Shown here: in pieces, positions 10,033 to 36,689 of the stretch
Numbering within the stretch: the stretch's first letter is position 1
Layout of the letters: each line of letters begins with the position of its first letter
From: Ornithodoros turicata
Lineage: Eukaryota > Arthropoda > Arachnida > Ixodida > Argasidae
Length of the DNA: 64,000 nucleotides
Direction of reading: 5' to 3'
NCBI RefSeq assembly: GCF_037126465.1
Contig: NC_088206.1
Location: 27,716,790-27,780,789 of the forward strand
Position numbers and translations under genes: made by a program
The notes under the pieces: generated by a model
The model's database searches: none
Seen by the model: the letters and a program-made list of their open reading frames with translations, nothing else
What the model was told of the DNA's origin: nothing

Positions 10033-10992
10033 TTGAAACAAAGTCAAAACAATAATTCTCACGACAGGTGGAGATTCTATCATTCTAAACCAGATAATAA
10101 AATTTTAATCAATAAAATAAACATAGATATGCTTTTAATTAAGTGTAAATGTGCACTTGAAAACAGAAGAGACAATTGCTCTACATTGAAAAGATCGACA
10201 GATTTTGTACTCGATAGCATAACTCATGGGAAGATGTGATAAAAAACTGCTTCGAAAAGGAGGAGCCGCGAAACGATTCCATTATCGCTGCATTTCAATA
10301 CGTCCTAGACATGGTCGTATTCGGAGATTTGGTACAAACTACAGAACTTAAGATGCAAGAATTTATATGCCGAATCTACAATACTTATAATGGCGGAGTT
10401 TTTGAGGTTTGCTAACAAAGAATTGAAATACACTAGACCAGATGTAATTGTAATCATTGCAATGGGCATTGCGTTCATCAAGAAAGCAGTCGGATCAAAT
10501 TATCATATACAAGCGGTCTATATCGCACGATTCATTACGGATTAGTTGAAATTACACATATCTGAGATGGGAAGTACATAAAATTTTATCACATGATATG
10601 TTCTACTACCACGGCAACGCATTTATTTTATTTACCAGTCAGTGATGTCGAATGAGCAGAAGTTCAATATTGTCGTGCAAGGTCTGATGTATTATCACCA
10701 GTTGAAACTCAACAAACATATCAATTGTGGTGGACCACCGGACGATTTTCATCAAATACTCTCTTGTACGCCATTCAAGTGTCTTCATACAAAGAAAGGA
10801 AACATCAATAAGAGACTGTGCAAGTTCATCGCGACAAAGTACAAATTGTTGAAGCAATACAAACACGGCGACAACATAGCGCATGCGTTAATCAATGCTG
10901 GATTCAAGCGCCCAATAATCAGAATAAACTATTTAATGTCTTCGGAATTCATCAATGAAGACAACAAACGAAAACTTCGGAGTTTGAAATAA
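10033..10992 (+). pseudogene. Decayed unidentified gene in AT-rich block
   Basis: Coding-like stretches in three frames follow one another: 10,033-10,239, about 10,225-10,410, about 10,395-10,545, about 10,550-10,640 and 10,642-10,992. The joints need four or so frameshifts or stops. The last piece is open for 116 codons, Lys- and Asn-rich, with a Cys/His cluster (CGGPPDDFHQ; CTPFKCLH). Codons strongly favour A/T. I recognise no family. The repeated picture of good amino-acid composition across broken frames argues for a former gene of about 300 residues. Confidence 0.45.
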
Positions 10993-11465
10993 AACTGTAA
11001 TTTATCGAAATAAACAAGTGTATAACTGAAACAATAAGTGTAATCTTTGTCATCATCATAATGAATTCTACGCATCACAATGAAAAACACATTGCATTTA
11101 GCATGGCTAGACATGTCTTCGGAATTCATCAGTGAAGACAACAAACGAAAACTTCAGAGTCTGAAATAGAACTGTAATTTATCGAAATAAACAAGTGTAT
11201 AACTGAAACAATAAATGTAATCTTTGTCATCATCATAATGAATTCTACGCATCACAATGAAAAACATATTGCATTTAGCATGGCTACACATGTCTTCGGA
11301 ATTCATCAATGAAGACAACAAACGAAAACTTCAGAGTTTAAATAGATCTGTAATTTATCGAAATAAACAAGTGTATAACTGAAACAATAAATGTTATCTT
11401 TGTCATCATTATAATGAATTCTACCCATCACAATGAAAAACACCTTGCATTTAGCATGGCTAGAC
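10935..11465. repeat. Three tandem copies of a ~176-bp unit
   Basis: The unit starts with ATGTCTTCGGAATTCATC at 10,937, 11,112 and 11,289, and runs through GCATTTAGCATGGCTAGA. Copies are more than 90% alike. The first copy contains the last 18 codons of the decayed ORF ending at 10,992, so the array arose by triplication of a gene end plus its 3' flank. Confidence 0.85.
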
Positions 11466-11641
11466 TGAGAACAGTGATCGCTAAGGAAACGAATATTCCA
11501 CAATTTGTGTAAGAATTCTCATATGGAATGAGACCTGACCACCAAATAGGTTTTACTCGACTACACTCTGTACAAGTTCAACACCCGAAGGATAGAATTG
11601 CCGGAGAAGGATCGGTCATTGAAATTTAGAGACATGATACA
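11418..11641 (+). pseudogene. ORF fragment interrupted by the Polinton
   Basis: An open frame starting with ATGAATTCTACCCATCACAA at 11,418 runs through one TAA at about 11,509 and stays open to a TAG near 11,625, just before the Polinton. Beyond the right end (26,887 onward) another frame is open for about 15 codons. The Polinton may therefore have inserted into a gene of the AT-rich block. The product is unknown. Confidence 0.3.
11636..11641. repeat. Polinton target-site duplication, left
   Basis: GATACA stands directly before the first base of the left terminal repeat and is repeated exactly after the right end. A 6-bp duplication is the known signature of Polinton integrase. Confidence 0.95.
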
Positions 11642-12245
11642 AGTAGTATAGAAATGTGTCCTATAGCCAAGAGTTTTCTCTAATCCAATTCCAATCCAAT
11701 TCTAATCCAAAACGAATCCAATTCTAAGCCATAATCCAATCCTAATCCAACACAATCCAGTTCTAAGTCAACACAAGCCAAATCCAAAGCCATCTGATTG
11801 GCCGCCATTAGCTCCGCTCACTTCACGTTGATTGGCCCATGCTAAGCCTACTGATCTGATTGGCCGCCATTAGCTCCGCCCACCTCACGCTGAATGGCCC
11901 ATGCTAAGCCTACTGATCTGATTGGTTGACTGTAGCTCCGCCCCTTTATGCTAATTACTCGGCTCTGCCCACTTCACGCTGATTGGTGCATGCGTATCGC
12001 TGAGCACAGCTCCGCCCCTTTATGCCGATTAACTGGCTCCGCTGATTGGTCCATTCGAAGCCAACTGATCACTCTCCACATTTTCCAGACTTTCTGAGCC
12101 CTCTGATTGGCCGTCCTCAATTTAAGCCTACCGATTGGCCCGTTCTAAGCGCACTGATTGGCTGACTAAGCCCGCTGAACATAGCCTTCGTTAGCGCCCG
12201 CCAGATGGCGCGCTCGGCAGCGCCCCTGCTGCGGCTTTATCTCAG
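11642..12245 (+). repeat. Polinton left terminal inverted repeat
   Basis: The 604-bp repeat matches the right end in inverse order. The outer 160 bp is made of AATCCAATTC-like units; the inner part is made of about 60-bp modules each holding CTGATTGG (an inverted CCAAT box) and often AGCTCCGCCC (a GC box) and TTTATGCTAAT. About nine ATTGG boxes are present. The inner border is the shared GCGGCTTTATCTCA at about 12,231-12,245. Confidence 0.93.
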
Positions 12246-12362
12246 ACAGACAGGGAAAAAATACCTTTCAACGTTTAAAGAGTACATGTTTGAGAAGAAG
12301 CATGGCGGTCTTGGAGAGATTGATTCCTTTGATGCTGGGCATGGTTCCGCGGAAGTGACGGA

Positions 12363-12713
12363 TCATGTAGATGTGTAGATGTCTCCGGGACAGCGGCTGA
12401 GAAAAATTTCGTCCTCCGTGAGTTGGCACTTCCACGTGCACTGGATATCTTCGTAGCTGTCGCTCACGTCCAGCGAGTGAAGGCACGTGCACAGTGATTC
12501 AGTAGCGTTTCTGTCCAGGTTAATGCCGGACCGCATAGGTACCACGTGCCACTCTCTGATGGCTAAGATGTTGCCAGGGCATTCGTGCGCGTACGTGTGC
12601 TTATCCTTCTCCAGCTTGATGCTCGCAGTACAGTTGCCGGCGTCCAGCGCCAGCGCGCACGAGACGAGCCAGAAGAGAACCAGGTACCACATCCTTCCAG
12701 TGACGCAGTCCAA
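12363..12713 (-). CDS. Small secreted Cys-rich protein of the Polinton
   Basis: The ORF encodes 116 aa. A second Met at residue 8 starts a strong signal peptide (MWYLVLFWLVSCALA), so the mature protein probably begins near LDAGNC. The mature part has seven Cys, one CxC and a CxxxC, plus two N-glycosylation sequons (NCT, NAT). It lies about 70 bp downstream of the polymerase stop and 118 bp inside the left repeat. It is not one of the conserved Polinton core genes. Function is unknown; a captured host secreted protein or a virion/host-interaction factor would fit. The odd Cys count could mean the 3' end is shifted; the overlapping frame at 12,268-12,492 continues further. Confidence 0.55.
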   Translation of the reverse strand: MDCVTGRMWYLVLFWLVSCALALDAGNCTASIKLEKDKHTYAHECPGNILAIREWHVVPMRSGINLDRNATESLCTCLHSLDVSDSYEDIQCTWKCQLTEDEIFLSRCPGDIYTST

Positions 12714-12786
12714 ATGACGCTACTCCTACTCATCCTCTGCATTATCTGTGCGGTGGGGGAAAGAACACCGGGTGAAATCCCGCTAT

Positions 12787-15700
12787 CTACGTCATCCACT
12801 CGAGCTTACCATATTCACAGCTTCCGTACGGGTAGGAGTCCACGTCATTGTAGAGGTATCGTTTGTCGTCGTATGCCATCAGACTTCTTTTCACATTTCT
12901 GATGGTGTACATGCACTGTTTCTTTCCCACTATTGACACCTGTTCATGCGATACGCTAGCGTGCTTGAATAGGGTATCGCGGTACGTATCATGGAGGAGG
13001 TGTTTGCGCACAATGTTCTTTTTGACCCCTTTAGCTCTTGCTATCTGTTTTCCCCCGGCTAATTTGATGGAATACATTTTGGCTTTCAAGCATATTACTT
13101 CCTCGATGGGTACGCTACCCGTTTCACTTTTGAACGCACCAAGTCTGCCGCGATTCCTCTCGCTGTACAGTGGATGATCACGATCGAAGGAAGACAAGTC
13201 TAAATGGTCGTCGGCGATCGCACGTAACTGATCTTCGTAGTCCTTACAGAATAGGCCGAGGATCAGAGAGTCCGTGTCAGAGTAGCAGGTAATCACCGGA
13301 CAAGTGAGCTTGCTCAACAGGGTTTCATAGTAGAACGAGTACATGGTTAACTCACTCAGTTCTAAAATCGTGAAGCCAATCTGCAGTTGGAAATCGCATC
13401 GCACTTTTCTCTTGCGCATTTCGTACATGACGCAATCGGGGGATAAAATTTCCATTCGCGCGCATTCCGCCTGACTTCCGAGGCGACTCGCCGTCTCATC
13501 ATAGAAGGCTCCTCGAATGTCCCGCATATTAAATTTATTTAGCAGCGTACGCCCGAAGACTGCATTATTTGAGATTTAATAGAAATTTTTCTCGAACGTT
13601 GTGCTCGAGGCGACGCGTCTGGCAACATTTTCCTCAATGTAGGGACGCAGGAATGGTGCCTGATGAAATTTTAGAATTCTGTGAATTTTCGTCACCCTCA
13701 TGCCCAGTCTACAATAGAGCGCGAGCAGCGCGTGAATTACGTACTCGACCTTGTCCTTGCACGTGAGCAGCAGCTTTTTGCTGTTTGCCGGCTGATACAT
13801 TAACTCTTCGAGGAGCCCTCGCTGGAATGGTGAGAGCCATTCCTTCGGAACGATCACCTTCTCAGGAGCCAGGGGGAAGTACCGCGTCAGCGCGTGGATA
13901 GATTTTGGATACTCCAAATCGCACACGTACACGTATCCCACGTCCGAATCTGTGGGATGATGCATAAAATCCACGGAGCTAAAATCCTCCACCCATTCCA
14001 AATCGCCGACGGGGAGCTGCTTTATCATGGTGAATCCATAAAGATTGTTGCAATCTATGTACGATATGTACACCTCCTCTTTATCGGGATCGTAGCCACT
14101 GCACAGCGGGTTGTTAGCCCGTAAATGACGCCTGCTCGCCTGACAGAGTCCGCCTCTAACACCCGATTCGATGGTTTGGTACATGTCCTCGTCGATGATC
14201 AGCTCCAATTTTACCCGCGTGTAATTTAGAGCGCATTGCCACGAATAGGATGCCAGCGAAACGCAATGAAGCAATTCGAAACCGCGTGCGTCGTAGCACA
14301 GGCGCCGGAAGTGCTGCATTACGTCAGCATGTAACAGGGCATCCGTTTTCAGGTACAATGCATTATAATCCCTCAGATTCAAGCATCCAAAACGTTGGAA
14401 TAGTTGCAGCGCATACTGGTAGTCTTCCTCGCTTATATCCTCCCCAGTGAGATCATTTCGGAAGGCAGATTTTGCCGGCATGGCCAATTCGTCGTACACC
14501 GCAAAAGAATTAACGTGGCTGTATGGGAATACACCTTTACGAAGCAGAATTTCGTAGTCGTTTCCAAATACCTGCTTCAGGCACTGGAACGCCTCTGCGC
14601 CCCCCATGGATTTGACGGTTTCCACGAGCTCTCCCAGCGACGAATTTAGGTACTGCATGGTATCTCTGAATAGGAAGGTGCCAATTTCGAACGATCGAAT
14701 TTTTTCAATGGAACTGGCAATGATGAAGGGAGCTCGCTTCCACCCGAGAAGGTGAAATTCCCGCAGCAGTCCGGCCAAATCGTAGGCCAGATTGTGCACC
14801 ATGATCGGTAATTTTTCTCTCGTCGTGCACGCCACGTTACAGGGGCTGCACAGCATCGCAATGTAATTTGTGTCCCTGGCAGTACATCGTTTGGAATGGT
14901 CGTGATGACGGACACGGGGTAGATCTTAAGTGAACTCCCGCCCGCAGTACGTGCAGTGGGTGGCAGCTCTGTGCAGTGCTCGTTGCTCATCATTTAGCAC
15001 CATTTCCGTGGGGCAGGCGTTCAGGGCGATCATCTCGTCCCGCATTTCCATCAAAGCTCTGACGCAGTGCCTCGCGGAATCTTCGCCGTGGTGCGTCCTG
15101 ATGCGCATCACCTTCGAGTCGTGGGTGCGCACGAGCACGGCACAGAAGCTAGAGGTGACGTAACGCTGCATGCCAACACCACGCGAGTACGCTCTCCGTG
15201 TCCAACGCGACGACGTAGTTATACTGCTGCTTGTACTGCATTTTAGTAAATTCTACAAAGTGTTTGCCCGGTTCCCAAAATTCCAATATGATTTTGTTTA
15301 CGTCCGCGCACAGGCGACGATGCTTCGCCATGCTCTCTTCCTTCAGGAAAGAGCACCTGCAACGCTCGCAGACGAAACGCTTGTCTTTCCTAATCAGTAA
15401 CCGCTCGAGGGACTTGATTCCAAAAAAATGCTGGTCTATAGCCAATAAGTGAATTTTCTTTTCATACTCGAGTTCGAGTCTTGGGGGTCGCGACACGTGC
15501 ACTCCCTGATCGACGTACGCGTATACGTACACGGATATCTTGTTTTTGTCTTCGAATTCGTCCAGGTCAGAGTAGGAAACGGGGAAGCGACTAGGCCACC
15601 AGTACTCCGTTGCGTAATTTTCATATTCTTTTGTCCATGTATTCTAACTCTGTGGATGCAGGAGTGCGAGCGTGTTGTATTTAAAACACTCACCCTCCTT

Positions 15701-16320
15701 ACGTGCCGGCAAATGAATATTTGTTAGCACGTTCCTGCGCTTAGCCAAGTGATCGGGAAGCACCCCATTGCAGCCGCGTTTTCACCGTGGAAATACATAT
15801 TTGAACGTTTTGAACGTCAGTGGACACGAACCTGCTCCATTCCCGCTGATAATTTTCTGCGCGCCCCGTGGGCTCCTAAATCACGTCCATTAGGGTATTC
15901 GCGATGGCTCCGTCGCTGTGGACTTCGCGAGCAAACGCCATAAAGTGGGCGATGTGCGCGATTATCTCCCCCCGAGTTCCCCTCACCATTAAAACATCGG
16001 AACAAATGCAAAACCTAAAGGGTATTCTTTGCGCTCTCAATATAGCGAGCATATCGTGAAAGTGACTCATTAAATATTGTAGCAAATCCTCTACTCCCTG
16101 ATCGTGAACAGATGCCAATAGCACGTACCTTTTAACGACATCTCTAAATGCACTGTCAGTCGGGAAGAAGGGCAGGAAGGATGTCGGGGTGCGATCGCAT
16201 CACGTGAGCAGACAGTGTAGAAGGTGCGCCGTCCCGAGAATCGTCGTCCGATTCATCCTCAATATCACGAGGGTCAAAGAGCAGAATACACACCGAGGCA
16301 CTGAAAATAAACGGATCCAT
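12787..16320 (-). pseudogene. polB: Protein-primed family-B DNA polymerase, broken
   Basis: This would copy the Polinton genome. The start is ATG 16,318-16,320. The N-terminal part is spread over 16,320-15,150 with frameshifts near 16,175, between about 15,640 and 15,880, and near 15,175. It includes a Cys/His zinc-like region (CERCRC...H...C, about 15,330-15,370) and Exo I (LDTE, about 15,195). Then come a CTYCG...HDH nuclease-like zinc motif (about 14,870-14,950), Exo II (HNLAYDLAG, about 14,790), Exo III (YLKTDALLHADV, about 14,345), motif A (DCNNLYG, about 14,050), motif B (NNAVFG, about 13,560) and motif C (YSDTDS, about 13,270-13,284). In-frame TAA stops stand at 14,926-14,928 and 13,576-13,578; the latter falls on the conserved Lys of motif B. 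Confidence 0.92.
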
Positions 16321-16398
16321 AAGAAATGTGCAACAAGTGAGGCGAATAACTTACTTTTGAAGCGAGTGAAGGCAGACTGTTCCCCCCTGAGGCGATCA

Positions 16399-16414
16399 TG
16401 CGGCTTATAAACCA
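16399..16414 (-). promoter_or_regulatory. Probable TATA box of the polymerase gene
   Basis: On the minus strand GGTTTATAAGCC (about 16,403-16,413) lies some 85-90 bp before the polymerase ATG. A GTAAGT sequence near 16,350 could be the donor of a short leader intron. Inferred from motif and position only. Confidence 0.4.
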
Positions 16415-16430
16415 GCAGCCATGCTGCATG

Positions 16431-19220
16431 TCAGAACATGTTGGGGCCATCTGTTTTATATCAAAGCTCGCGTATTCCCGTGCTTTGGTGCTTGTAAATC
16501 ATGCGTTCCAAGAAATGAGGTCAAGAGGCCTCCGCGGCCGCGGTGCACGTGTCAACACGTTGGGGCCGTGTGTTTTATATCAAAGCTCGCGTATTCCCAT
16601 GCTTTGGTGCTCGTAAATCATGCGTTCCAAGAAATGAGGTCAAGGGGCCTCCGCAGCCGCGGTGCACGTGTCAACACGTTGGGGCCGTGTGTCTTATATC
16701 AAAGCTCACGTATTCCCATGCTTTGGTGCTCTTAAATCATGCGTTTCAAGAAATGAGGTCAAGGGGCCTCCGCGGCAGCGGTGCACGTGTCAACACGTTG
16801 GGGCCATGTGTTTTATATAAAAGCTCGCGTATTCCCATGCTTTGGTGCTTGTAAATCATGCGTTCCAAGAAATGAGGTCAAGGGGCCTCCGCGGCCGCGG
16901 TGCACGTGTCAACACGTTGGGGCCGTGTGTTTTATATCAAAGCTCGCGCATTCCCACGCTTTGGTGCTCGTAAATCATGCGTTTCAAGAAATGAGGTCAA
17001 GGGGCCTCCGCGGCCGCGGTGCACGTGTCAACACGTTGGGGCCATGTGTTTTATATCAAAGCTCGCGTATTCCCATGCTTTGGTGCTCGTAAATCATGCG
17101 TTCCAAGAAATGAGGTCAAGGGGCCTCCGCGGCCCCGGTGCACGTGTCAACACGTTGGGGCCATGTGTTTTATATCAAAGCTCGCGTATTCCCATGCTTT
17201 GGTGCTCGTAAATCATGCGTTCCAAGAAATGAGGTCAAGGGGCCTCCGCGGCCGCGGTGCACGTGTCAACACGTTGGGGCCGTGTATTTTATATCAAAGC
17301 TCGCGTATTCCCATGCTTTGATGCTCGTAAATCATGCGTTCCAAGAAATGAGGTCAAGGGGCCTCCACAGCCGCGGTGCACGTGTCAACACGTTGGGGCC
17401 GTGTGTTTTATATCAAAGCTCGCGCATTCCCATGCTTTGGTGCTCGTAAACCATGCGTTTCAAGAAATGAGGTCAAGGGGCCTCCGCGGCCCCGGTGCAC
17501 GTGTCAACACGTTGGGGCCATGTGTTTTATATCAAAGCTCACGTATTCCCATGCTTTGGTGCTTGTAAATCATGCGTTCCAAGAAATGAGGTCAAGGGGC
17601 CTCCGCGGCCGCGGTGCACGTGTCAACACGTTGGGGCCGTGTATTTTATATCAAAGCTCGCGTATTCCCATGCTTTGATGCTCGTAAATCATGCGTTCCA
17701 AGAAATGAGGTCAAGGGGCCTCCACAGCCGCGGTGCACGTGTCAACACGTTGGGGCCGTGTGTTTTATATCAAAGCTCGCGCATTCCCACGCTTTGGTGC
17801 TCGTAAATCATGCGTTTCAAGAAATGAGGTCAAGGGGCCTCCGCGGCCGCGGTGCACGTGTCAACACGTTGGGGCCATGTGTTTTATATCAAAGCTCGCG
17901 TATTCCCATGCTTTGGTGCTCGTAAATCATGCGTTCCAAGAAATGAGGTCAAGGGGCCTCCGCGGCCCCGGTGCACGTGTCAACACGTTGGGGCCATGTG
18001 TTTTATATCAAAGCTCGCGTATTCCCATGCTTTGGTGCTCGTAAATCATGCGTTCCAAGAAATGAGGTCAAGGGGCCTCCGCGGCCGCGGTGCACGTGTC
18101 AACACGTTGGGGCCGTGTATTTTATATCAAAGCTCGCGTATTCCCATGCTTTGATGCTCGTAAATCATGCGTTCCAAGAAATGAGGTCAAGGGGCCTCCA
18201 CAGCCGCGGTGCACGTGTCAACACGTTGGGGCCGTGTGTTTTATATCAAAGCTCGCGCATTCCCATGCTTTGGTGCTCGTAAACCATGCGTTTCAAGAAA
18301 TGAGGTCAAGGGGCCTCCGCGGCCGCGGTGCACGTGTCAACACGTTGGGGCCATGTGTTTTATATCAAAGCTCGCGTATTCCCATGCTTTGGTGCTCGTA
18401 AATCATGCGTTCCAAGAAATGAGGTCAAGGGGCCTCCGCGGCCCCGGTGCACGTGTCAACACGTTGGGGCCATGTGTTTTATATCAAAGCTCGCGTATTC
18501 CCATGCTTTGGTGCTCGTAAATCATGCGTTCCAAGAAATGAGGTCAAGGGGCCTCCGCGGCCGCGGTGCACGTGTCAACACGTTGGGGCCATGTGTTTTT
18601 AATATCAAAGCTCGCGTATTCCCATGCTTTGGTGCTCGTAAATCATGCGTTCCAAGAAATGAGGTCAAGGGGCCTCCGCGGCCGCGGTGCACGTGTCAAC
18701 ACGTTGGGGCCATGTGTTTTATATCAAAGCTCGCGTATTCCCATGCTTTGGTGCTCGTAAATCATGTGTTCCGAGAAATGAGGTCACGGAGGAGAAATGA
18801 GGTCACGGAGCTTCATCTGCCATCCCAACACGTTGGGGCCATCTGTTTTATGTCAAAACTCGGGTAGTCCCATGCTTTGGTAGTCGTAAATCATGTGTTC
18901 CAAGAAATGAGGTCAAGGGGCCTTCGCGGGCGCGGTGCACGTGTGAGCACGTTGGGGCCATGTGTTCTATATCAAACCTCGCGTATTCACATGCTTTGGT
19001 GCTCGTAAATCACGTGTTCCGAGAAATGAGGTCACGGAGGAGAAATGAGGTCACGGAGCTTCATCGGCCATCCCAATACGTTGGGGCCATCTGTTTTATA
19101 TCAAAGCTCGCATACTGCCATGCTTTGGAGGTTGTAAATCACGTTTGTCAAGAAATGAGGTCATGGAGCCGCGGCCGCGGCGCTGCATGTCTCAACAAGT
19201 TGTGCCATCTGTTTTATATC
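16431..19220. repeat. 119-bp satellite array inside the Polinton
   Basis: About 20 units of exactly 119 bp run from 16,431 to 18,780, followed by three or four diverged units to about 19,220. Each unit holds GTTTTATATCAAAG, AGAAATGAGGTCA, GCGGCCGCGG and GCACGTGTCAACACG. A block of five units (16,900-17,494) is repeated almost identically 833 bp (seven units) later, which shows higher-order amplification. The overlapping 100-103 codon ORFs here are by-products of a stop-poor unit whose length is not a multiple of three. The array fills the space between two diverging genes, so it may be an amplified regulatory or replication sequence. Confidence 0.97.
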
Positions 19221-19366
19221 AGCAAGCTTTCTGTAACCAAAAATAAAGGGTTTGCTTATGCACTTTGGTTTCCAAGAAGTTCCAAATGTCCTTCGCAGCT
19301 AAAATGCTCGCTCGCCGTATATCACGGGCTGTTTCTATGTTATTGTGTAAACAAAATCCCAGGGGT

Positions 19367-19573
19367 GCTTTATATAAAAGTTGCGATATATACAACTCAT
19401 ATGAGGTCTGTGAAGCTACTTCCGTCGGTCGAATCCCGGTGAAGCGCACAACGAGAAAGGTATGTTTCACTATTGTCTTCAAGATGAGGAATGTTAGGTA
19501 ATAGTTGTCCTCATTTTCAGTTCATTTGGCGTGCGTAGAAACTTGCACTGAGAGATACGTCATCTATTTTCCA
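19367..19573 (+). promoter_or_regulatory. TATA promoter and leader intron of the + strand ORF
   Basis: TTTATATAAAAG at about 19,369-19,380 is a good TATA box. About 80 bp later AAAG|GTATGT (about 19,459) is a donor, and TATTTTCCAG at about 19,564-19,573 an acceptor (an alternative AG lies near 19,520). The ORF starts 47 bp after this acceptor. This implies host-type spliced transcription of the Polinton. Confidence 0.5.
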
Positions 19574-19619
19574 GAAGCTGGATAAACTAAAGACACCTGG
19601 AAATGGGGACATTCAGAAA

Positions 19620-19883
19620 ATGAGCAGTGTTCCGAAGAAGCTCGACGTGTTGGACTTACGCAAAGTGGATACTATGTACGGGGAGTCCGTGTACGTGGAA
19701 CTCCTGATGGACAACGATAAACGCGTAAAGGTGTACCTACCCAGTTGTTTTAAGCAACTCACAGATGAAGATTTGGAAGAAATGCGAGAATTACCAGATC
19801 TGAAACTAGAGAAGGAGGGATTCAGGGACGGTAAAACAGTCGCATCGCTGGACATCATCTTTACTCACGCGAAGAAGAAGTGA
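19620..19883 (+). CDS. Small conserved Polinton ORF, possibly ssDNA-binding
   Basis: The 87-aa protein reads like a small beta-rich domain: KVDTMYGESVYVELLMD, then KRVKVYLPSCFKQLTDEDLEE. Proteins with this K-x-x-T-x-(Y/F)-G-E...(V/F)-x-L-P pattern are, to my knowledge, common near Polintons, and an OB-fold single-strand DNA-binding role is a reasonable guess. It is the only clear gene on the plus strand of the element and is intact. AATAAA at 19,923-19,928 follows the stop by 40 bp. Confidence 0.6.
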   Translation: MSSVPKKLDVLDLRKVDTMYGESVYVELLMDNDKRVKVYLPSCFKQLTDEDLEEMRELPDLKLEKEGFRDGKTVASLDIIFTHAKKK

Positions 19884-19922
19884 CCGCGGGACCAGCGAAA
19901 GTCCGCGTGTAACCAGCAGTAA

Positions 19923-19928
19923 AATAAA
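19923..19928 (+). terminator. Polyadenylation signal
   Basis: AATAAA lies 40 bp after the stop of the plus-strand ORF, in an A/T-rich stretch. A second AATAAA occurs at about 20,092. Confidence 0.5.
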
Positions 19929-20112
19929 AAACGTGTATTTCTGATTTTAAGAGAAAAAATGTTGCATTCTTGTTACGGATTAGGAAGATAGGCTGATATG
20001 ATGGGAAGCTCTATTGATAGAATGATATGATAGGGAGCTATAGCACGTATTCATCGACTAAGCAAGTATAGTTTGTGGGGAGCTATAGAGAATAAAGGAA
20101 ACCACACTTTTT

Positions 20113-20539
20113 TTAAGCGACAAACAACTTTTCTAGCAGCTTTATTGAATTTAGGTCATTAGCGGCGAGATTATCGGAAAACAGGGATACAATGCTCTTC
20201 AGTGATTTCCCTTTCGCCAACAATGTCGCCACGATACACACCACACATTGGAGAATACAGGCTTTGGATACAGACATCATTATATTCGTCGACGCTGAGG
20301 CGTTTCAACTCGGGTTCGATGGGTGGCAATCCGAAGGAATCAAAGTAGATGAGGTCATCCTTCATTTTCGCGTACAGAATCCAGTGCTCCCCGGCTTGCT
20401 GTCGCCGATCGGTGTTCACCACGATTATACCCGGTCTATCCAGTGCGGGCAGACGGTCGTCTCGAGCGTATACACCGCGGAAGAGTGCCGAAATGTAATC
20501 GTTGTACTTCAGGAGTCTCTCGATATCTTGCTCGAACAT
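20113..20539 (-). pseudogene. Adenovirus-type cysteine protease, frameshifted
   Basis: This enzyme matures virion proteins in adenoviruses and Polintons. The ORF from 20,539 shows the catalytic His in GEHWILYAK (about residue 52), the acidic partner in IYFDSFG (about residue 65) and the catalytic Cys in SPMCGVY (about residue 98). Right after CGVY the frame is lost at about 20,216. The family-typical C-terminal helix region (KSIVSLFSDNLAAND) continues in another frame to a TAA at 20,113-20,115. It starts 2 bp after the end of the major capsid gene. Confidence 0.88.
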
Positions 20540-20541
20540 CG

Positions 20542-21867
20542 CTAATCCAGTGTGACGTTCCTGTTCTTATCGATGGACATAATTCGCACACTCTCGCACA
20601 GTATGAATACGGTCGTGGGTTCGGTCAAGGCACGTCGGAACTTGAGTTGCAGACGAACGTTTCCACGCCTGATCGGTGACAGGTGGACGGAGGATTGATC
20701 GGGATCCAGGTCGTAGTACAGTAGGAACTTGTTTCCAACGTAGTGGTCGTATTCGTAGGAGACGTGCTTCTCACACAGCTGCTCCAGGAGGTTGAAGTAG
20801 CTTCGGTGGTTCAGGTTATTGTTGAAGTCGAACATGTCTATTCACTGCGTCCCGTTCACGGTGAGCGTCGCCGACTCAATGTCGCAGTTCACAAATCGAT
20901 ACGGGTCCCGATTGAATGCTCCCTGGTAGGCTAGGGTGGGCACGAACGCGACCACCACCTTAGACGGTATCTTCTCTGGAAATCTTCCAGGCATGCATCC
21001 AGGTTGCCAACTGGTAGCGAACGAATACGCGATTCACTTCCGGCCAGTGTGTAGAGAGCCTTGCGCTGCTGCAATTCCGTTTCGTGTCCGAGGAATAGGC
21101 TGGGAGACACGGCGATTTTCTTTATGTACAAGGTAGCACTCATGATTGCCACTTTATGCGTGTGCTGCTCCTGATCGGTCTTCATAATGCGGAACGCGTC
21201 GGAGCCTTGATAAAAAACAAGCCTAATTTCCACTCCCGATATGAGTAGCTTAGGCTGCAGGAAAATGTCCGAGTTGATCCTGGAAACCAAGTCGATGGTC
21301 TGAGGTTGTGAGGTTGTATCGTTCGGAGGTTGTATCACCACCACGTGTGAGGTTGCATCGTTCGGTCGGTCCACGAGCGCGAATGTTGTTTTCCGATTGA
21401 CGCGCTTCTTCTTGCGTGTACAGACCCGCTTTATGAGTGGTATTTTGCTCCGTGGTGCTGGCGTGAAGCAAAATATCCAGGTAGCTTCCATAGCTATACA
21501 AATCATGATTCGTAATCATGGTCTGATTCAAGAAGACGGCTACGTTCTTGAAAAGCGAGCTGGCGAACGCGTTGACGGGGTAGACCTCGTCGTAGGTCGT
21601 CCGATCGCCAGCCTGTGTTTCCGGTAGCGAACCATCGTCACGTACGATGCGGACTTTCGTCACTATGTACGCGGAGTTCAAATCGAGATAGTGGTGCCCC
21701 AAATTCGAAAGCTGGAACTCTATGACGGAGGATATGTCAGCCACCGGGTAGAATACCTCATATTCCCCCTTCAGTATATGCCACTGCGTTCCCGGCATGG
21801 AAAATAACTGTGTTTCCAACTTAGCCAACAGAGGAGTGTCAGGATGTACGACGTCAATCGTGTCCAT
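20542..21867 (-). pseudogene. Major capsid protein (double jelly-roll), broken
   Basis: The start is ATG 21,865-21,867, 7 bp after the stop of the preceding ORF. The N-terminal part (KLETQLFSMPGTQWHI, then DLNSAYIVTKVRI and FLNQTMITNHDLYSYGSYL) and the middle part (INSDIFLQPKLLISGVEIRL) match Polinton major capsid proteins, as does the C-terminal part (FLLYYDLDPDQSS...GNVRLQLKFRRAL...KNRNV). Breaks are a frame change near 21,400, one near 20,985, and a TGA at about 20,836-20,838. A short duplicated CCGAACGAT(A/G)CAACCTCAC segment at about 21,300-21,370 expands the protein at the first break. The protein would form the icosahedral shell. Confidence 0.88.
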
Positions 21868-21874
21868 CTCACAA

Positions 21875-22214
21875 CTAAATTGTGGCCGCGCAACCAGCGT
21901 GATGTATGCCGTCGAAGACGTCCGGGTTTCTCCTCTTTCTTCGCCCGCCAGCCCCTCCGAGGTCGAGGAGAATTTCACGGCCCGTATCTTTCGCCGATCT
22001 TTTAAGCGCACTTCGGAAAGAGTCTCCCTCCGACAGATTTTTCGCCACGCGCTTAGCGGCCGCAACAGCCGTCTTTTTTAAGTAGGGCGATACGCGTTTA
22101 AAGAATGGAATAGCGAAACGCCCGAGCTGAGAAATTGCCTACCTTCTGGTACAGGTGCGACCTGTATACCGTCGGAACGCCAAATCCGTAGATTGGTACC
22201 GCTTTAGTGTACAT
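21875..22214 (-). pseudogene. Small basic capsid-associated protein
   Basis: ATG 22,212-22,214 overlaps the stop of the penton gene by 11 nt. After about 24 codons (PIYGFGVPTVYRSHLYQK) the frame changes near 22,140. It then stays open for 87 codons: a hydrophobic/basic stretch, repeated KRxAK motifs and a GGAGGRRKRR tail. Small Lys/Arg-rich proteins with a G-R-K-R tail sit next to the major capsid gene in Polintons and adintoviruses and are thought to be virion components. Function is inferred from place and composition. Confidence 0.55.
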
Positions 22215-23478
22215 GCTTAAAGTGCAGCGTCAGCGTCGATCTACCGCGATTTTGTAGCGGTAGCTTGCGACCCGTGTCGTCGCGTATAGAGACGGTGATT
22301 GAGGAAATTTTGCGCTGCACTAACTTAAAATACTGAACGGGAAGAAAGCTGAAACTCAGTTGTTCTTTCGTTCTATCATATACGAATGGAATTAATTTCA
22401 GTATCGGATGCCGCCCGTTGCCCACTATGGAGGGCGTGACGAGATCTGTGTATATCATAATACAGTTAATGGGAAGATCTATGGTCACTTTGTCGATGCC
22501 CGTATCGTTTTCGGTAAATACGGTTTTTGCGCCGAAACCCAGTAGGTACGCAAAGTAATCGGATAATGTAAGCGACACGTTTTCCCGCCAGCTCAACGAA
22601 CACTTCCTCGCCCATGCATCGTACGTGAGGGAAGCCAGCTGCAGACGCTCATGGATGGCGCTCACGAGAGCTTCGGGTGTTTCGTAGTAATTCGGTGGAA
22701 GTGAAATGTGCCGACTTTCCGTCTCTCGAGTGTTTATGTGGATGCTGTAAGTCTTCACTATGGGATTACACGTGATGCGCTTTCGGGATCCTTCAACCTG
22801 GATGGGCTTCACCTGAATGAGCTCCAGGAACTCGGTTGACAAGTTGAAATTCGCCGGGAGAGAGAGCGAGTAAGTGTTGTCTTTGTATTCCACCCTTGAT
22901 TCAGTATCGTTCGTCGCTCTGAAGAATTCGTTGAATATCTCGGTAATGAGCGATCGGGGTTCTAAAATTAGATCGTTGTTGATCACCATCACGCGGCGAA
23001 CTCGCATCATAATGGCTCTTTCCTCCGCGAGCGGTAACACGTTTGAGACGGCGCGTACTCTACCACCCTCCGGGTGATCTGCATCGATGTCGACGATTCC
23101 AAAGGCGAGATGCAGCGGTCTGTCGACTAGTTTCACCGAGCGCACGCGCGATGGTAGCTTAAACACGTAGTGATCTTCCTCGTAAGTCCACTCTATCCCA
23201 TATTCGGGGAATATTTTATTCAATAGCGTGTCCGTGTCTTCGAACGTGAGCTGTTTTGTTTGCCACTTCTCCGTTGATAGCGTTATCAGGTTATCAGGCG
23301 CTTCGTTCGCGTTCAAGATCCTGTTGGGAATGGAAAATCCCTCTAGACCGACGACGTACAAATCATCCAGGTGTAGCGGCTTATAAAACGCGATCGTGAA
23401 GTCATTGAGCGTGTTGGACGGGTAAAGGTCCATGCTGGCGTTCGAGAGCAGATACACATAAAATTCATTTCCTGACAT
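22204..23478 (-). CDS. Minor capsid (penton-type) protein, intact
   Basis: The 424-aa ORF begins MSGNEFYVYLLSNASMDLYP, the conserved opening of Polinton vertex proteins (FYV-L-SN-SM---P-N). These are single jelly-roll pentons occupying the five-fold corners. The following DDLYVVGLEGFSIP block also fits. The length is normal for the family and there is no stop or frameshift, unlike nearly all neighbours. The start chosen is the first Met of the conserved block. Confidence 0.9.
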   Translation of the reverse strand: MSGNEFYVYLLSNASMDLYPSNTLNDFTIAFYKPLHLDDLYVVGLEGFSIPNRILNANEAPDNLITLSTEKWQTKQLTFEDTDTLLNKIFPEYGIEWTYEEDHYVFKLPSRVRSVKLVDRPLHLAFGIVDIDADHPEGGRVRAVSNVLPLAEERAIMMRVRRVMVINNDLILEPRSLITEIFNEFFRATNDTESRVEYKDNTYSLSLPANFNLSTEFLELIQVKPIQVEGSRKRITCNPIVKTYSIHINTRETESRHISLPPNYYETPEALVSAIHERLQLASLTYDAWARKCSLSWRENVSLTLSDYFAYLLGFGAKTVFTENDTGIDKVTIDLPINCIMIYTDLVTPSIVGNGRHPILKLIPFVYDRTKEQLSFSFLPVQYFKLVQRKISSITVSIRDDTGRKLPLQNRGRSTLTLHFKHVH

Positions 23479-23568
23479 CGCTGGCGGGCACCCAAGAATC
23501 GTGATCTTTGGCGTATCCGAACCAATGAACCAAGTAGCGTAATACCCCGTTAATTTTCTTCTTTCTAA

Positions 23569-24438
23569 TCACCGCGGATATGAGTCGTATGAGGAAAGAT
23601 GGTGGACGGGCTGCAGCTCCTGCTCGTAGAATGATCCCAGTATTTCTTTTCCCGTCGAATCTTTCACGTACACTATGGGCGGATCGGTCTTTCTCGTTCG
23701 CGACAACTCAAACACTTCGGCCGTCCACCTTTGATCGTAGCCTTTGGCGAACACACCGCGATCTAACGCGAGCCTCACCTGGTCCCCTGCTTTATACTTG
23801 CTCTCGCGCGGGGTCGTCTTACGATTCAGTCTGTTGAACAGAGCTACTTCATTTCCGGCGTTCACGTTTTTCGCCCGTGACGCAGTGTACCTAGTCGTTA
23901 TAGTCGGCCACTATCTTCGGCAGCGCGTTGATACAATTAAACTTCCCCGTACTAGTGAAATGCCTGGCTATTCTTTCTCTAATTGTTCTCTGCATGCGTT
24001 CACAGGAGGCCGCTTTCATTCCGCTCTGCGTGCTATAGTGATTTAGTAGCGACTGAAAGTACTGACGAACAGGAGAACCGCAAAATTCGCTTCCATGATC
24101 CCTGAGCAAATTCTTCGGAATTCCGTGACGGAAAACTCGTTGGAAAGCTTTCTTTACGTCTTGGGGGCGCTTTGTGCGAATGGGACCATGTACAGGTACC
24201 TCGATAGCGTATCTATGACCGTTAAGATGTACCTGAAGCCCTTGTTAAATTTCTGATATTTACGCATATCCAGAAGGTCTGCCTGATATAAATCCCGCAC
24301 GTGAGTTGCGATGATGGAGCGTCGCTTAAATTTTTTCTTCACTGGCTTGTGAAGGGTGTAAGCATCTTCTTTTTTCAGCTGTTCAGACGGCTTCTGCGCG
24401 CATGAGCTTGTGATAACGTCGGTAACGATCCACTCCAC
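23569..24438 (-). pseudogene. Retroviral-like integrase, broken into three frames
   Basis: This enzyme inserts the element and makes the 6-bp duplication. The pieces are: core start with first Asp (QADLLDM, about 24,270) and IDTLSRYLYMVPF (24,154-24,438); second Asp (RDHGSEF, about 24,100) and the Glu region (SCERMQRTIRERI, about 24,010); and the C-terminal SH3/chromo-like domain (YKAGDQVRLALDRGVFAKGY...FYEQELQPV, 23,569-23,865). Joints near 24,170 and 23,890 need one-base shifts. The N-terminal zinc domain is not clearly seen upstream of 24,438. Confidence 0.9.
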
Positions 24439-24461
24439 CTAACCCTTTCTCCTTGATCTTT

Positions 24462-24902
24462 CTATAGGGCCCCATGTTTGCTCCAGCGAGCAATTCGTTG
24501 TATTTTCAGAGCGCTTATAATTTTCGATACGTTTTTGTACCAGCTGGGTTTCTTGATGAGCGCGCTACGACGTGCTAAGTAGCTCGCGAGAGCCACAATG
24601 TCTGAGCGATTGATTCGCTTCCCTCTATATACTAGCACATTATCCACCCGCCAGGTGAAAACTTTCTTCAATTCTTTTAGCACAGATTTCGCCTGTGCTT
24701 TATCAACGCCGGAGGGTAGAAGATTAAAATCGAATGGATTGGGCTCCGGTTCGGGCTCCGAATGGACGGGTTCCAGAGGAGGAGGAGGATGATAGTGAGC
24801 GCGCTTCAGCAAGTAATAGAGGGCTTCCAGTATTTTGCCCACCTTTACGTCGTCCGAATCGTTAGATTTCAGAACTTCACCTATTTCTATTCTATGAGCC
24901 AT
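24462..24902 (-). CDS. Conserved Polinton protein of unknown function
   Basis: The start is ATG 24,900-24,902, overlapping the stop of the previous gene by 11 nt. The 146-aa product has an N-terminal helix, a Pro/Glu linker (HPPPPLEPVHSEPEPEPNP) and a C-terminal block FTWRVDNVLVYRGKRINRSD with SDIVALASYLARR. A W...G...I..S-(N/D)-I-x-x-L pattern is shared by a Polinton/adintovirus protein whose job is not established. The ORF is intact to a stop at 24,462. Confidence 0.55.
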   Translation of the reverse strand: MAHRIEIGEVLKSNDSDDVKVGKILEALYYLLKRAHYHPPPPLEPVHSEPEPEPNPFDFNLLPSGVDKAQAKSVLKELKKVFTWRVDNVLVYRGKRINRSDIVALASYLARRSALIKKPSWYKNVSKIISALKIQRIARWSKHGAL

Positions 24903-25246
24903 GACCGATGGCTTTGGATATCGCTCGCCCGGCGACTCCCGCCACAAGACTTGATAGCCCTGAGAGGAGCAGTGGAAGTATAGGAATGAGACCACCTCGT
25001 TGTCCCCTAATATATTTCTTCAACTGCCTGGGGCACTTATGAAGTGACTTGTTAGCGAGGAAGCGGAGGATTTTTTTTGTTTCTTATGTTCAGACAGTTC
25101 AGAATGTTCAGAATGTTCAGACAGATTTCCGAAAGGATTCGAATGTCGCCGCAGCTGAGCTCTTTAAGTAACTCTGCGCGGTGCGTTGGTTTGCTGGCGG
25201 CCAATACTTTGAGGAGCGTGAGATGTCTTCTAAGATTGGCCGTCAT
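24892..25246 (-). pseudogene. Small helical/hydrophobic virion-type protein
   Basis: The ATG at 25,244-25,246 shares ATGA with the ATPase stop. The N-terminal part (LTLLKVLAASKPTHRAELLKEL...ILSEICLNILN) matches a widespread Polinton protein. The C-terminal part has a glycine/hydrophobic stretch (GGLIPILPLLLSGLSSLVAG) like membrane-active minor virion proteins such as adenovirus pVI. A frame change falls in the eight-base A/T run at about 25,070, so the break could be a homopolymer error. The stop is at 24,892-24,894. Confidence 0.6.
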
Positions 25247-25858
25247 TTCGCGGGCGTAAACAGGAACTGCCGGTCGTGCGGTAAAATACCCGTTCGCAGG
25301 CTACGAGATGGAGGTGTTTGCGCGTGCAGATCCACAACTAAATAACTGTGCGCCTTCTCCGTCGCCTGGTTATATGCGTCGAGAAAATAGGAGAGCCCCT
25401 GTTTCCCGAATACCTGACGTCCGAAGGTTTCGATCTGTTGTACGGACCGAGCGTTCCAGAACAATATGATATAACTGGCGTCCAGCGATATCGTTCGAAC
25501 AGCGGCGTTGTGATAGAACAAGGCTTGTGTGATCAGGATCACGGACGCATTCTTATGATGGCTACCACGTACAAACGACTCTACCTCCAATAGAACCCCC
25601 CTTTTCCGTGATTTGATCGTCAATAACTATGAGAGTGGGATATCGCTCATCCCATTCTGCGGGTATCCTGTTCATAAACTCCACACCGTCGAAATCCTTT
25701 TCCCAGCCGGCTGCATACTTTCGTACGTAGAGTATCTTCTGCGGTGGAATGCTAAATAATTCGGGATGTCTCATTATATTCTGCGTGAGCACCGTCTTGC
25801 CACACAAGGACGCGCCGGAGATGAGAATTCGAGCAGGGTGCTGGAACTGCATGCGCAT
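25243..25858 (-). pseudogene. FtsK/HerA-type genome-packaging ATPase, frameshifted
   Basis: The product would pump DNA into capsids. The first part holds Walker A (ILISGASLCGKT, about residues 10-22) and Walker B (TLIVIDD, about residue 76). The second part holds the HHKNASVILITQALFYHN block with the sensor Gln and the C-terminal region to a stop at 25,243. The two parts lie in different frames, with the change in or near a six-base C/G run at 25,596-25,601. Walker A has Leu where family members usually have a small residue. It lies between a small ORF upstream and the helical protein downstream. Confidence 0.9.
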
Positions 25859-26151
25859 CGTGGAATAACTCGAGCAGACTGTGTAGCGAGGTGTGATGCA
25901 TCTTTATTTTCATCCATAGCTCCTAGCGCGATTGATGATCGTCTCCAGGACTCTATTTCTTCCTGACATAGTTCCTGAAGCTCGCGTAGTGATTGCTTCC
26001 TGTAAGCAGAGATTTCGCGTATGATTTCCCGCATCTTGTTTGCGGTGATACAGGAGCGCAATATGTGGCAGCACATCTCGACGAAGTTCTGTCGCTCGTA
26101 TGACGCCTCAAAGTGGAACAGCGTGGAGTTGATGCACCTGAGTCGCGCCAT
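25774..26151 (-). CDS. Small helical ORF at the right end of the Polinton
   Basis: The 125-codon ORF starts 28 bp inside the right terminal repeat. The first 80 residues are strongly helical and charged (MREIIREISAYRKQSLRELQ). The last 40 overlap the ATPase start in another frame and probably are not native. I recognise no family. It is the first gene of the leftward transcription unit. Confidence 0.4.
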   Translation of the reverse strand: MARLRCINSTLFHFEASYERQNFVEMCCHILRSCITANKMREIIREISAYRKQSLRELQELCQEEIESWRRSSIALGAMDENKDASHLATQSARVIPRCACSSSTLLEFSSPARPCVARRCSRRI

Positions 26152-26179
26152 CTGCTGGCACGAGGTAAGTTTGGATGTA

Positions 26180-26880
26180 TGAGATAAAGCCGCAGCAGGG
26201 TCGCTGCCGAGCGCGCCATCTGGCGGGCGCTAAAGACGGCTATGTTCAGCGGGCTTAGTCAGCCAATCAGTGCGCTTAGAACGGGCCAATCGGTAGGCTT
26301 AAATTGAGGACGGCCAATCAGAGGGCTTAGAAAGTCTGGAAAATGTGGAGAGTGATCAGTAGGCTTCGAATGGACCAATCAGCGGAGCCAGTTAATCGGC
26401 ATAAAGGGGCGGAGCTGTGCTCAGCGATACGCATGCACCAATCAGCGTGAAGTGGGCAGAGACGAGTAATTAGCATAAAGGGGCAGAGCTACAGTCAACC
26501 AATCAATGATCAGTAGGCTTAGCACGGGCCATTCAGCGTGAACTGGGCGGAGCCAAGCCAACTAATTAGCATAAAGGAGCGGAGCTACGGTCAGCCAGTC
26601 GAAGATCAGTAGGCTTAGCAACGGCCAACCAACGTGAAGTGGGCGGAGCTAATGGCGGCCAATCGGATCAGTAGGCTTAGCATGGGCCAATCAACGTAAG
26701 GTGGGCAGAGCTAATGGCGGCCAATCAGATGGCTTTGGATTTGGCTTGTGTTGACTTAGAACTGGATTGTGTTGGATTAGAACTGGTTTATGGCTTAGAA
26801 ATGGATTTGATTTGGATTAGAATTGGATTGGAATTGGATTAGAGAAAACTCTTGGCTATAGGACACATTTCTATACTACT
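26180..26880 (-). repeat. Polinton right terminal inverted repeat
   Basis: The 701-bp repeat is the inverse of the left one but holds about 100 bp more, equal to extra copies of the internal CCAAT/GC-box module (GGGCGGAGC...CCAATCAG). It ends in CTATACTACT followed by GATACA. The two repeats agree closely in the outer 50 bp and the inner 200 bp and differ in module number between. Confidence 0.93.
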
Positions 26881-26886
26881 GATACA
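26881..26886. repeat. Polinton target-site duplication, right
   Basis: GATACA follows the last base of the right terminal repeat, identical to 11,636-11,641. Confidence 0.95.
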
Positions 26887-34393: not shown

Positions 34394-36560
34394 CAGTGGT
34401 TCTCAACGTTTCCAGCTCCCCGGACCCCTTTTCGCACTCGTCAAGACGTCATCCCCCCCCCCTCCTCCCCTACGCGCGCTGGAGTGAACTACGCAGGAAC
34501 AGATGCCCGACCACACGAGTACAGTTAGACGGTGTCCAATTACGGAAAATACTTTATTCAAGGTTGACTAGGACCACAATGTCCACGGGACCTCGTGTTG
34601 GTAATCTGAACATTAATATGTAGCACGAGAGCGCATATACCATTTTCAGCATCGCCGACGCAGTCCACATTTTAAATAAAAGTGAGGAGGGGAGAACAAA
34701 CGAGTGATAGGCAGGCACAATTACGCCACGCGTCAGTGGGAGTTCCGAACACACAACGGTCAATGCGACAGTTGTGACTGCTTATTCTTCAGGAGTTCCT
34801 CGATTCGCGGAGCTGTGCACGAAAGAGTGCTGCGCAGATGAGATTCTACATCTAGCCTGCTTCGTTGCTTCGATTTGATCTGTAAAAGCGCCGAGAACCC
34901 AGACTCGCACAGGTAGGTTGATACAAAAGGAAGCAACGTGCGAAGCGCTTTTTCCGAAACTTTGGGGTAAGAACAGCACATCAGCGGCCAGAACTCTGTT
35001 ATGGGTTTCCCTTCGAAGATATCCTTTGCTGCGGAATCAGTCTGCAGTTCCAAAAATTCGTCCTGACAATTATCAGGCACCTTCACCACTGGGAGCTTGG
35101 AAGGGTTCCGCACTAGAGCCAAGTCGTCGTCCCTAAGTTCAGGGAAGTACCTGTGGAATTCCCCTTGCAAAGCTGTCAAGTGGAACAGAATTTCTATTCT
35201 GGCGAACACTGGAATTTTGCCATCATGGTAACTGCCGCAAAGCGTTGAGGACAGCTTCTCGAACATTGCGACGTTGCCTCCATTCACTTTCCTTTTCCAG
35301 TTTTGCACTTTGCACAAGAAGGCCTTCAGTGAATCGATGAACTTGATTATGTTCGTGTTTCTTCCTTGGATCTGAAGGTTCAGCTTGTTCAGCTGCTCAA
35401 ACATGTCCACGAAGTAGGCGAGACGCAATATCCACGCTTCTTCGTTCAACCAGGCGAAATACGTCGTCTTGCCCTGTTCTTGGAAGAATACCTTAAGCTC
35501 TTCACGGAGTTCGAACAACCTGGCAGTCACGTTCCCCCTTGAAAGCCAACGAACGTTCGTGGAGGAACTGATGTCCTGCGTCCATATCACTGCACAGATC
35601 CTTGAAGAGTCTCGTGTTGAGAGCTCCCCCTTTGACAAAGTTGACAATCTGGATCGTTTGATCCAGGACCTCTTGCAAGGAAGCTGGAAGCGTTTTTGAC
35701 GCGAGCGCTTGGCGATGGATCATGCATGGACGCTCTTGACTTCAGGAGCTCGCTTTTTCACGGCAGCCTGAGAACCAGATTTTGACCCAAGCATAGCCGG
35801 CGCTCCGTCCGTACAGCAACCGCAGACCTTGTTCCATAAAAGGCCACGTGACTCGAAGAATGAGGACACTTTTTCGAAGACATCTGAGGCTCTTGTTGTA
35901 GATTCTAACGTAGAGCAAAAGAGGAACTCCTCTTTAAATGAACCCGCGTGCACATATCTGGCTAACACCAGCAGCTGGAAGCCTGATGCCACGTCAGTAG
36001 ACTCGTCCAGCTGAATTGAGAAGAGTCCAAATGCTGCCGATTTTATCTGCTGAACAACTTGATCCCTGATGTCGTCAGCCATGTCACTTATTCTTCTTTG
36101 AACAGTGCTATTTGAGAGGGGAACAGCTGCCAGTTTCCGCTCTTGCTCCTTACCCAATAATATTTCAACCATCTTGAAGGCACAAGGTTTTATCAAGGTT
36201 TCGCCAATGGTGTGTGGCTTTTTTTGCTTCGCTATTTCCAGTGCTATGAAGTAGGAACCTTCCATAACGTTGTGGCCTGCAACTTGGAAGGCTCCCGTAG
36301 AGTCTAGCTTCACCTTTTTCAGGACGTTTTCATGACGCTGGAAAAAGCACTTTTCCTTATCGCTGTGCTGAGGGTGAACACTGTGCAAATGTTCCTTCAG
36401 CTTGGTCGGCCTCATAGAGTCGTTAGACAAGACCTTGTTACAGACGACGCATTGAGGCCTTTGTTCCCCGTTTATGACTGTGCATGTAAATCCGCACTGA
36501 ATGTACGACTCATTGTACCCTCTTCTTTTGACGCTCATTGTAGCCTTCAAGACCTGTAAA
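34394..36560 (-). mobile_element. Buster/Charlie-type hAT transposon
   Basis: The downstream end is CAGTGGTTCTCAACGTTTCC (34,394-34,413), a classical hAT terminal repeat, preceded by CAATGGAG. The transposase gene begins 366 bp inside. The other end was not found; the sequence beyond 36,560 lacks a matching CCACTG plus CAATGGAG, so that end is lost or diverged. Confidence 0.75.
34760..36538 (-). pseudogene. hAT transposase with BED-like zinc finger, two frameshifts
   Basis: From ATG 36,536-36,538 the order is: zinc finger (CVVCNKVLSNDSMRPTKLKE...H....H, about residues 28-55), catalytic core with LDESTDV (about residue 175) and CTDGAPAMLG (about residue 240), a helical insertion domain, then the C-terminal dimerisation domain (TYLCESGFSALLQIKSKQR, about 34,880). 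It resembles transposases behind the vertebrate ZBED5 and SCAND3 genes. Frameshifts near 35,722 and about 35,575 are its only serious breaks, so decay is recent. Confidence 0.9.
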
Positions 36561-36689
36561 ACAGACCATCTGATGTAGGGTAAATGCTTAACCTTCTTCA
36601 CGGGGACCGTATGAAAAAAGACAACGTAAAACGCATTGGCCGTCTCGCTATACTTTGAGCAGCTGTTTTGGCGGCCAGCTTAACTGCAG

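Follow-up and report, generated by a model that had tools for sequence, protein, structure and literature searches.

A tandem array in the divergent intergenic region of a tick Polinton: a candidate upstream control region overgrown in one copy

What is a tandem array of about 23 units doing between two divergently oriented genes of a mobile element, and how did it grow there? We addressed this question in the window, a 64,000-nucleotide stretch of the genome of the tick Ornithodoros turicata, for which an initial annotation had placed a 119-bp satellite in the promoter region of a Polinton and proposed an amplified enhancer, a replication or packaging element, or a seed of host satellite DNA as explanations.

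The array and the element that carries it

The carrier is a decayed Polinton/Maverick of 15,239 bp (11642–26880), and its inverted termini, target-site duplication, DNA polymerase B match and chromodomain bear out the Polinton context of the array. Both hallmarks sought at its ends were present: the 6-bp target-site duplication, GATACA (left, 11636–11641; right, 26881–26886), and long terminal inverted repeats of about 600–700 bp (left, 11642–12248, plus strand; right, 26176–26880, minus strand). Aligned over 615 sites, the two arms show 27 differences (~4%), a count that includes a short misaligned inner end. They also differ in length by about 96 bp, and tandem repeats of 62 bp (11792–11943) and 96 bp (26467–26730) lie within them; three 177-bp tandem copies (94% matches; 10936–11465) lie immediately beyond its left terminus. 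Elsewhere in the window we detected remnants of a hAT-like transposase and two reverse transcriptases (34760–36601, 46307–47380 and 62249–63142).

The leftward PolB remnant (12787–16320, minus strand, with a probable start near 16320) is broken by in-frame stops and frame changes into adjacent stop-to-stop frames; one piece matched DNA_pol_B_2 (E 2.1e-12), and two pieces were 92% identical to an O. turicata protein. Rightward of the array lies a small open frame (19539–19883, plus strand) with homologues in three other Polinton families and no relative in the protein database (six candidates). The chromodomain (23465–23707, minus strand) is taken as part of an integrase remnant; the integrase core had no match in the element pieces tried. 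Protease, packaging ATPase and capsid proteins had no Pfam match in the pieces tried and were assigned by eye, as was an adenain-like protease remnant (20171–20566, minus strand) apart from a non-significant match to 1avp (E 0.51).

Tandem Repeats Finder delimited the array at 16435–19221, with a period of 119, 23.2 copies, 91% matches and a score of 4522. This corresponds to 23 complete units, of which 20 are 119 bp long, two 129 bp and one 121 bp, followed by a 28-nt partial unit (19194–19221), in agreement with the annotated count. The units share a common head and carry one of two tails: tail b, found in units 1–19 (16435–18697, plus strand), contains a G+C palindrome, exact or nearly so, and an E-box, while tail a, found in units 20 and 22, contains a second copy of AGGTCA. 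Units 20–23 (18698–19193, plus strand; 129, 119, 129 and 119 bp) appear to be older terminal units, and units 1–19 a private expansion. Sixteen unit types were distinguished among the 23, in the order ABCDEFGHIJHEFGHKFGLMNOP; unit similarity peaks at distances of 7, 4 and 11 units, an exact second copy of a 598-bp stretch lies at a distance of 833 bp within the array, and unit 1 and the right-hand units are more diverged than the middle ones.

Each unit had been described as carrying three motifs, of which one proved universal: AGGTCA is present in 23/23 units (twice in each 129-bp unit), whereas TTTTATATC is exact in 18 of the 23 full units and CACGTG occupies its usual place in 20 (units 1–19 and 21), lying elsewhere in unit 22 and missing from units 20 and 23. 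The initial annotation read AGGTCA as a nuclear-receptor half site and CACGTG as an E-box. Both are frequent in the rest of the window (33 occurrences of AGGTCA, counted on both strands, and 18 of CACGTG, or ~0.06 and 0.035 per 119 bp), so either could sit in one founding unit by chance; their presence in such a unit says little, and their repetition is no independent evidence for them. The longest invariant run is a 13-nt block, AGAAATGAGGTCA, identical in 23/23 window units (42 of 5000 permutations). Two other accounts of the array were rejected. If it were coding, its 187-aa frame might have a protein relative, but none was found (22 candidates); and CpG methylation decay as a source of unit variation finds no match in CpG observed/expected ratios of 1.12 for the array, compared with 1.17 for the remaining element. 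Neither RNA families at gathering scores nor tRNAs were found.

Copies in the tick genome and growth of the array

A search of the 1.07-Gb genome with one unit gave 145 candidates, of which the best 40 were scored. The matches listed, some of the 226, lie at 40 loci; one is the window, and all 39 others were fetched. These 39 are the best-scoring candidates, so the sample is biased towards close relatives. In every one of them (39/39), the units are flanked by matches to the left and right flanks of the window array, between the 5' end of PolB and the flank of the small rightward gene. The array therefore behaves as a transposon-internal one and not as a chance insertion: separate copies have it in one position, with 4 to 13 units of about 119–129 bp. 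Most copies (32) have five unit heads; four copies have six, and single copies have 4, 7 and 13. The two unit types follow the order HaHaHbHaH in all but one of the five-unit copies (31/32). Comparing unit number across the family thus upheld the homology of the array in all relatives examined, but the length of 23 units is private to the window. The copies with 13 (L130) and 7 (L131) units are identical at 998 of 1000 sites left of the array, and a 743-bp block occurs twice in the former (734/743 identical) and once in the latter.

The 89-nt unit heads indicate how the window array may have reached its length. Heads of units 1–19 are all nearest to unit 1 of one other copy, L128, whose order is HbHaHbHaH, and heads of units 20–23 match positions 4, 3, 4 and 5 of other copies; the window thus looks like the L128 state with its first unit multiplied from 1 to 19. 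The left flank of L128 differs from that of the window, so it is a separate insertion (its right end lies beyond the stretch fetched). Head differences among units 1–19 average 3.8%, with a largest value of 10%, close to the divergence of the inverted repeats. This similarity, together with the exact 598-bp repeat, which would have to be younger, suggests that growth took place around and after insertion, with block duplications probably continuing afterwards. Units 1–19 would then derive from one b-type unit, partly by post-insertion duplication of blocks of several units, and growth from 5 to 23 would be the neutral outcome of slippage or unequal exchange once the copy was dead, and not adaptation.

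We also detected a diverged subfamily at four loci (L174 and L179–L181), with full heads 70–79% identical to the window unit and at least 3–7 units beside the left flank in 4/4 loci; the right flank was reached in one. Among its 22 heads, AGGTCA is kept in 15, TTTTATA in 11 and CACGTG in none, and the single CACGTG in the four stretches lies outside the units of L181. The E-box is not family-wide and is confined to one of the two unit tails.

Three other Polinton families (L189–L191) were sampled upstream of PolB after a spider PolB search of the genome, in which 68 of 3,679 candidates were scored. All three (3/3) have a homologue of the small gene (45–72% identical) on the strand of PolB and upstream of it, with the two frames 15 nt apart in L189. 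In the window's family, by contrast, the two genes stand back to back, so an inversion or rearrangement is implied. The array unit was not found in these three families; among the families seen, the array therefore belongs to the window's. An unrelated repeat of ~135 bp, in two to three partial copies, lies upstream of the small gene in L190 (1440–1781). Outside ticks, we found no units in viral contigs (exact 22-mer) or phage records and no PolB in phage records. The unit 15-mer gave at least 117 scattered single matches in prokaryote genomes, which are uninformative, and two viral contigs with a PolB relative (L118 and L119) are too distant to inform.

Predicted promoters and the function of the array

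Candidate TATA/initiator promoters directed outward were found on both sides of the array. On the right, a TATA box, TTTATATAAAAG (19369–19380, plus strand), is followed 28 nt from its T by an initiator, TCATAT, matching TCAKTY at 5/6 positions and giving a predicted start at 19399 (plus strand). On the left, a TATA-like box, TATAAG (16404–16411, minus strand, first T at 16409), fails the strict TATAWAWR rule and precedes a predicted start at 16378 (minus strand; ACAGTC, 5/6 to TCAKTY). The rightward 12-mer is kept in 35/39 copies, and in 35/35 of those the initiator fits at 6/6 positions, which counts as about one observation since these copies share descent. The leftward box is likewise kept in 35/39 copies, with GACTGT or GACTGA at the place of the initiator in 39/39.

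How unusual these pairs are depends on the rule applied. A first scan, whose rule included TTATAAG since it had already been seen in the sequence, returned three TATA/initiator pairs within the Polinton, of which two point outward on either side of the array; shuffles of the rest of the element gave 0.54 pairs on average. Shuffling of the flanks yielded the leftward pair in 2/1000 cases, the rightward pair in 26/1000 and both in 0/1000, under a rule partly set after the sites were seen. With a stricter rule the leftward box no longer qualifies; such a scan gives six pairs within the Polinton and another 23 across the other 61 kb of the window. The two TATA 8-mers rank at the 82nd and 85th percentiles of flank 8-mer conservation, no better than many others.

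The best reading of these observations, on balance slightly favoured, is that the array represents, in overgrown form, an ancestral upstream control region built of tandem units and serving two divergent promoters. Each unit would bind the same factor, or the same set of factors, and the set of units would act as a shared upstream activator of the two TATA/initiator promoters just outside the array. The proposed amplified enhancer therefore stands in the form of an amplified upstream control region, with a regulatory role that, judged from sequence, we consider a little more probable than its absence. A control region is what the place, order and age of the array speak for, but the conservation statistics are no proof of one. 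The five-unit copies (n = 32) diverge by 3.6% in the array, compared with 2.9% in PolB, 3.4% and 4.1% in the two flanks, and 6.0% for the small gene, so the array resembles its surroundings and enjoys no special conservation. Identical columns do not cluster significantly between unit positions (1523/5000 permutations).

These same statistics are compatible with a neutral minisatellite, a chance intergenic duplication inherited without counter-selection and with no regulatory role, which we regard as a tentative alternative of appreciable but clearly less than even probability. The divergence of the array, the unclustered identical columns, the range of unit number from 4 to 23 and the decay of the element all agree with it. 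They must be set against a place and two-type order kept in 31/32 five-unit copies, the occurrence of the array in a diverged subfamily as well, and the 13-nt block invariant in window units. A more elaborate regulatory reading, in which a two-type enhancer of roughly five units acts bidirectionally, unit number is an expression dial under selection, and copies with 13 and 23 units gain or lose activity, seems to us improbable.

A replication origin or packaging element, comparable to the hr regions of baculoviruses, is very unlikely. A protein-primed polymerase starts at termini. Polintons encode such a polymerase, according to passages of PMC6431247, which speaks against an internal origin. 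The parallel draws on hr regions being repeat arrays, with enhancer activity for hr1 of AcMNPV in passages of PMC6368282, and on the 12-bp G+C palindrome of the tick units. That palindrome is exact in 11/23 units, under half, and one unit folded no significantly better than its shuffles (z −1.03). This part of the initial annotation found no positive evidence.

We further considered an amplified core promoter, in which each unit would be a duplicated TATA/start-site segment, as in the analogous ribosomal spacer promoters. In its favour, the array region has the word TATAAAA on its minus strand twenty times, and the alignment of the right flank to the unit beats 295 of 300 shuffles; against this, neither rule finds a TATA/initiator pair inside the array (best initiator score 4/6 in the stricter scan), and the flank alignment is long, gappy and one of six tests. 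We rejected this explanation on the missing pairs and the gappy alignment, and give it scant probability.

The 15-mer of the unit occurs at 254 genome places, against 2 for its reversed control, a frequency that could suggest dispersal outside Polintons. We listed 100 of the 254 places (C1 and most of C2), among which the largest cluster held four hits, and fetched short stretches at 20 further C1 loci, the first 15 in order and five further along. Nine of the 20 hold units, the four loci of the diverged subfamily among them, all with Polinton sequence on at least one side; the other 11 hold no unit and belong to one unrelated repeat family. This repeat (L169, L171–L173, L175–L177, L183, L184, L187 and L188) has the 15-mer in common with the unit, and its copies share up to 1.2 kb at about 86–97% identity. 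No unit outside a Polinton context was thus found among the 48 other unit-bearing loci examined (39 + 9), nor any long array independent of the mobile element, as satellite DNA would form; for the 15-mer, the listing covered 100 of the 254 places. Absence from relatives together with an independent host satellite, which would point to a chance insertion, was sought and not seen (39/39 and 9/9), and the suggested seeding of host satellite DNA gained no example in the part of the genome's matches inspected. A host satellite inserted into the Polinton, or already seeded by it, is accordingly the least probable of the explanations, with Polinton sequence adjoining the units in all 39 copies and in the nine further loci.

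Known systems and significance

Comparable tandem repeats have been described in several systems, and the tick array resembles each of them in part. Tetris of Drosophila virilis, with its TIR-220 repeats, likewise carries internal tandem repeats, which also form longer satellite-like arrays; passages of PMC4079207 place them in foldback terminal repeats that built genomic satellite arrays. The tick repeats, in contrast, lie between two genes, and at the loci examined no array was seen beyond the element itself. Helitron-associated satellites of Crassostrea gigas are, as here, short tandem arrays that form a standing part of a mobile element, though the carrier in the portions of PMC8268682 concerned is a Helitron and not a Polinton; one 1,656-bp satellite in a table of that paper, CgiSat52, does match a Polinton. 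The locust satellite LmiSat34-299 is also a tandem repeat with Polinton similarity, but resembles Polinton coding sequence and not the promoter region, as far as passages of PMC4935994 describe it. Baculovirus hr regions, like the tick array, consist of non-coding repeats that vary in number and belong to a dsDNA element found in arthropods, and hr1 is reported to have enhancer activity; in passages of PMC6368282 their repeats are 28-bp palindromes (five to sixteen palindromes in SpexNPV), located at several genome places, and the parallel is one of how they work, drawn without sequence comparison.

A satellite of this kind inside a Polinton had been thought undescribed. Since Polinton-similar satellites are already in print (in parts of PMC4935994 and PMC8268682), the claim to novelty is narrower, and what holds concerns position: a promoter-region array in a Polinton was not found in the PMC literature searched, passages of PMC8097293, PMC12220804, PMC12910113 and PMC7859515 included. 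Transcription of animal Polintons seems to be little studied, and among the seven PMC papers found on the subject, no title concerned Polinton promoters. The array offers a candidate control region that is defined and testable, and for which one genome supplies a natural gradation of unit number (4, 5, 6, 7, 13 and 23). It may also be an approximately datable example of how a repeat inside a dead transposon grows towards a satellite.
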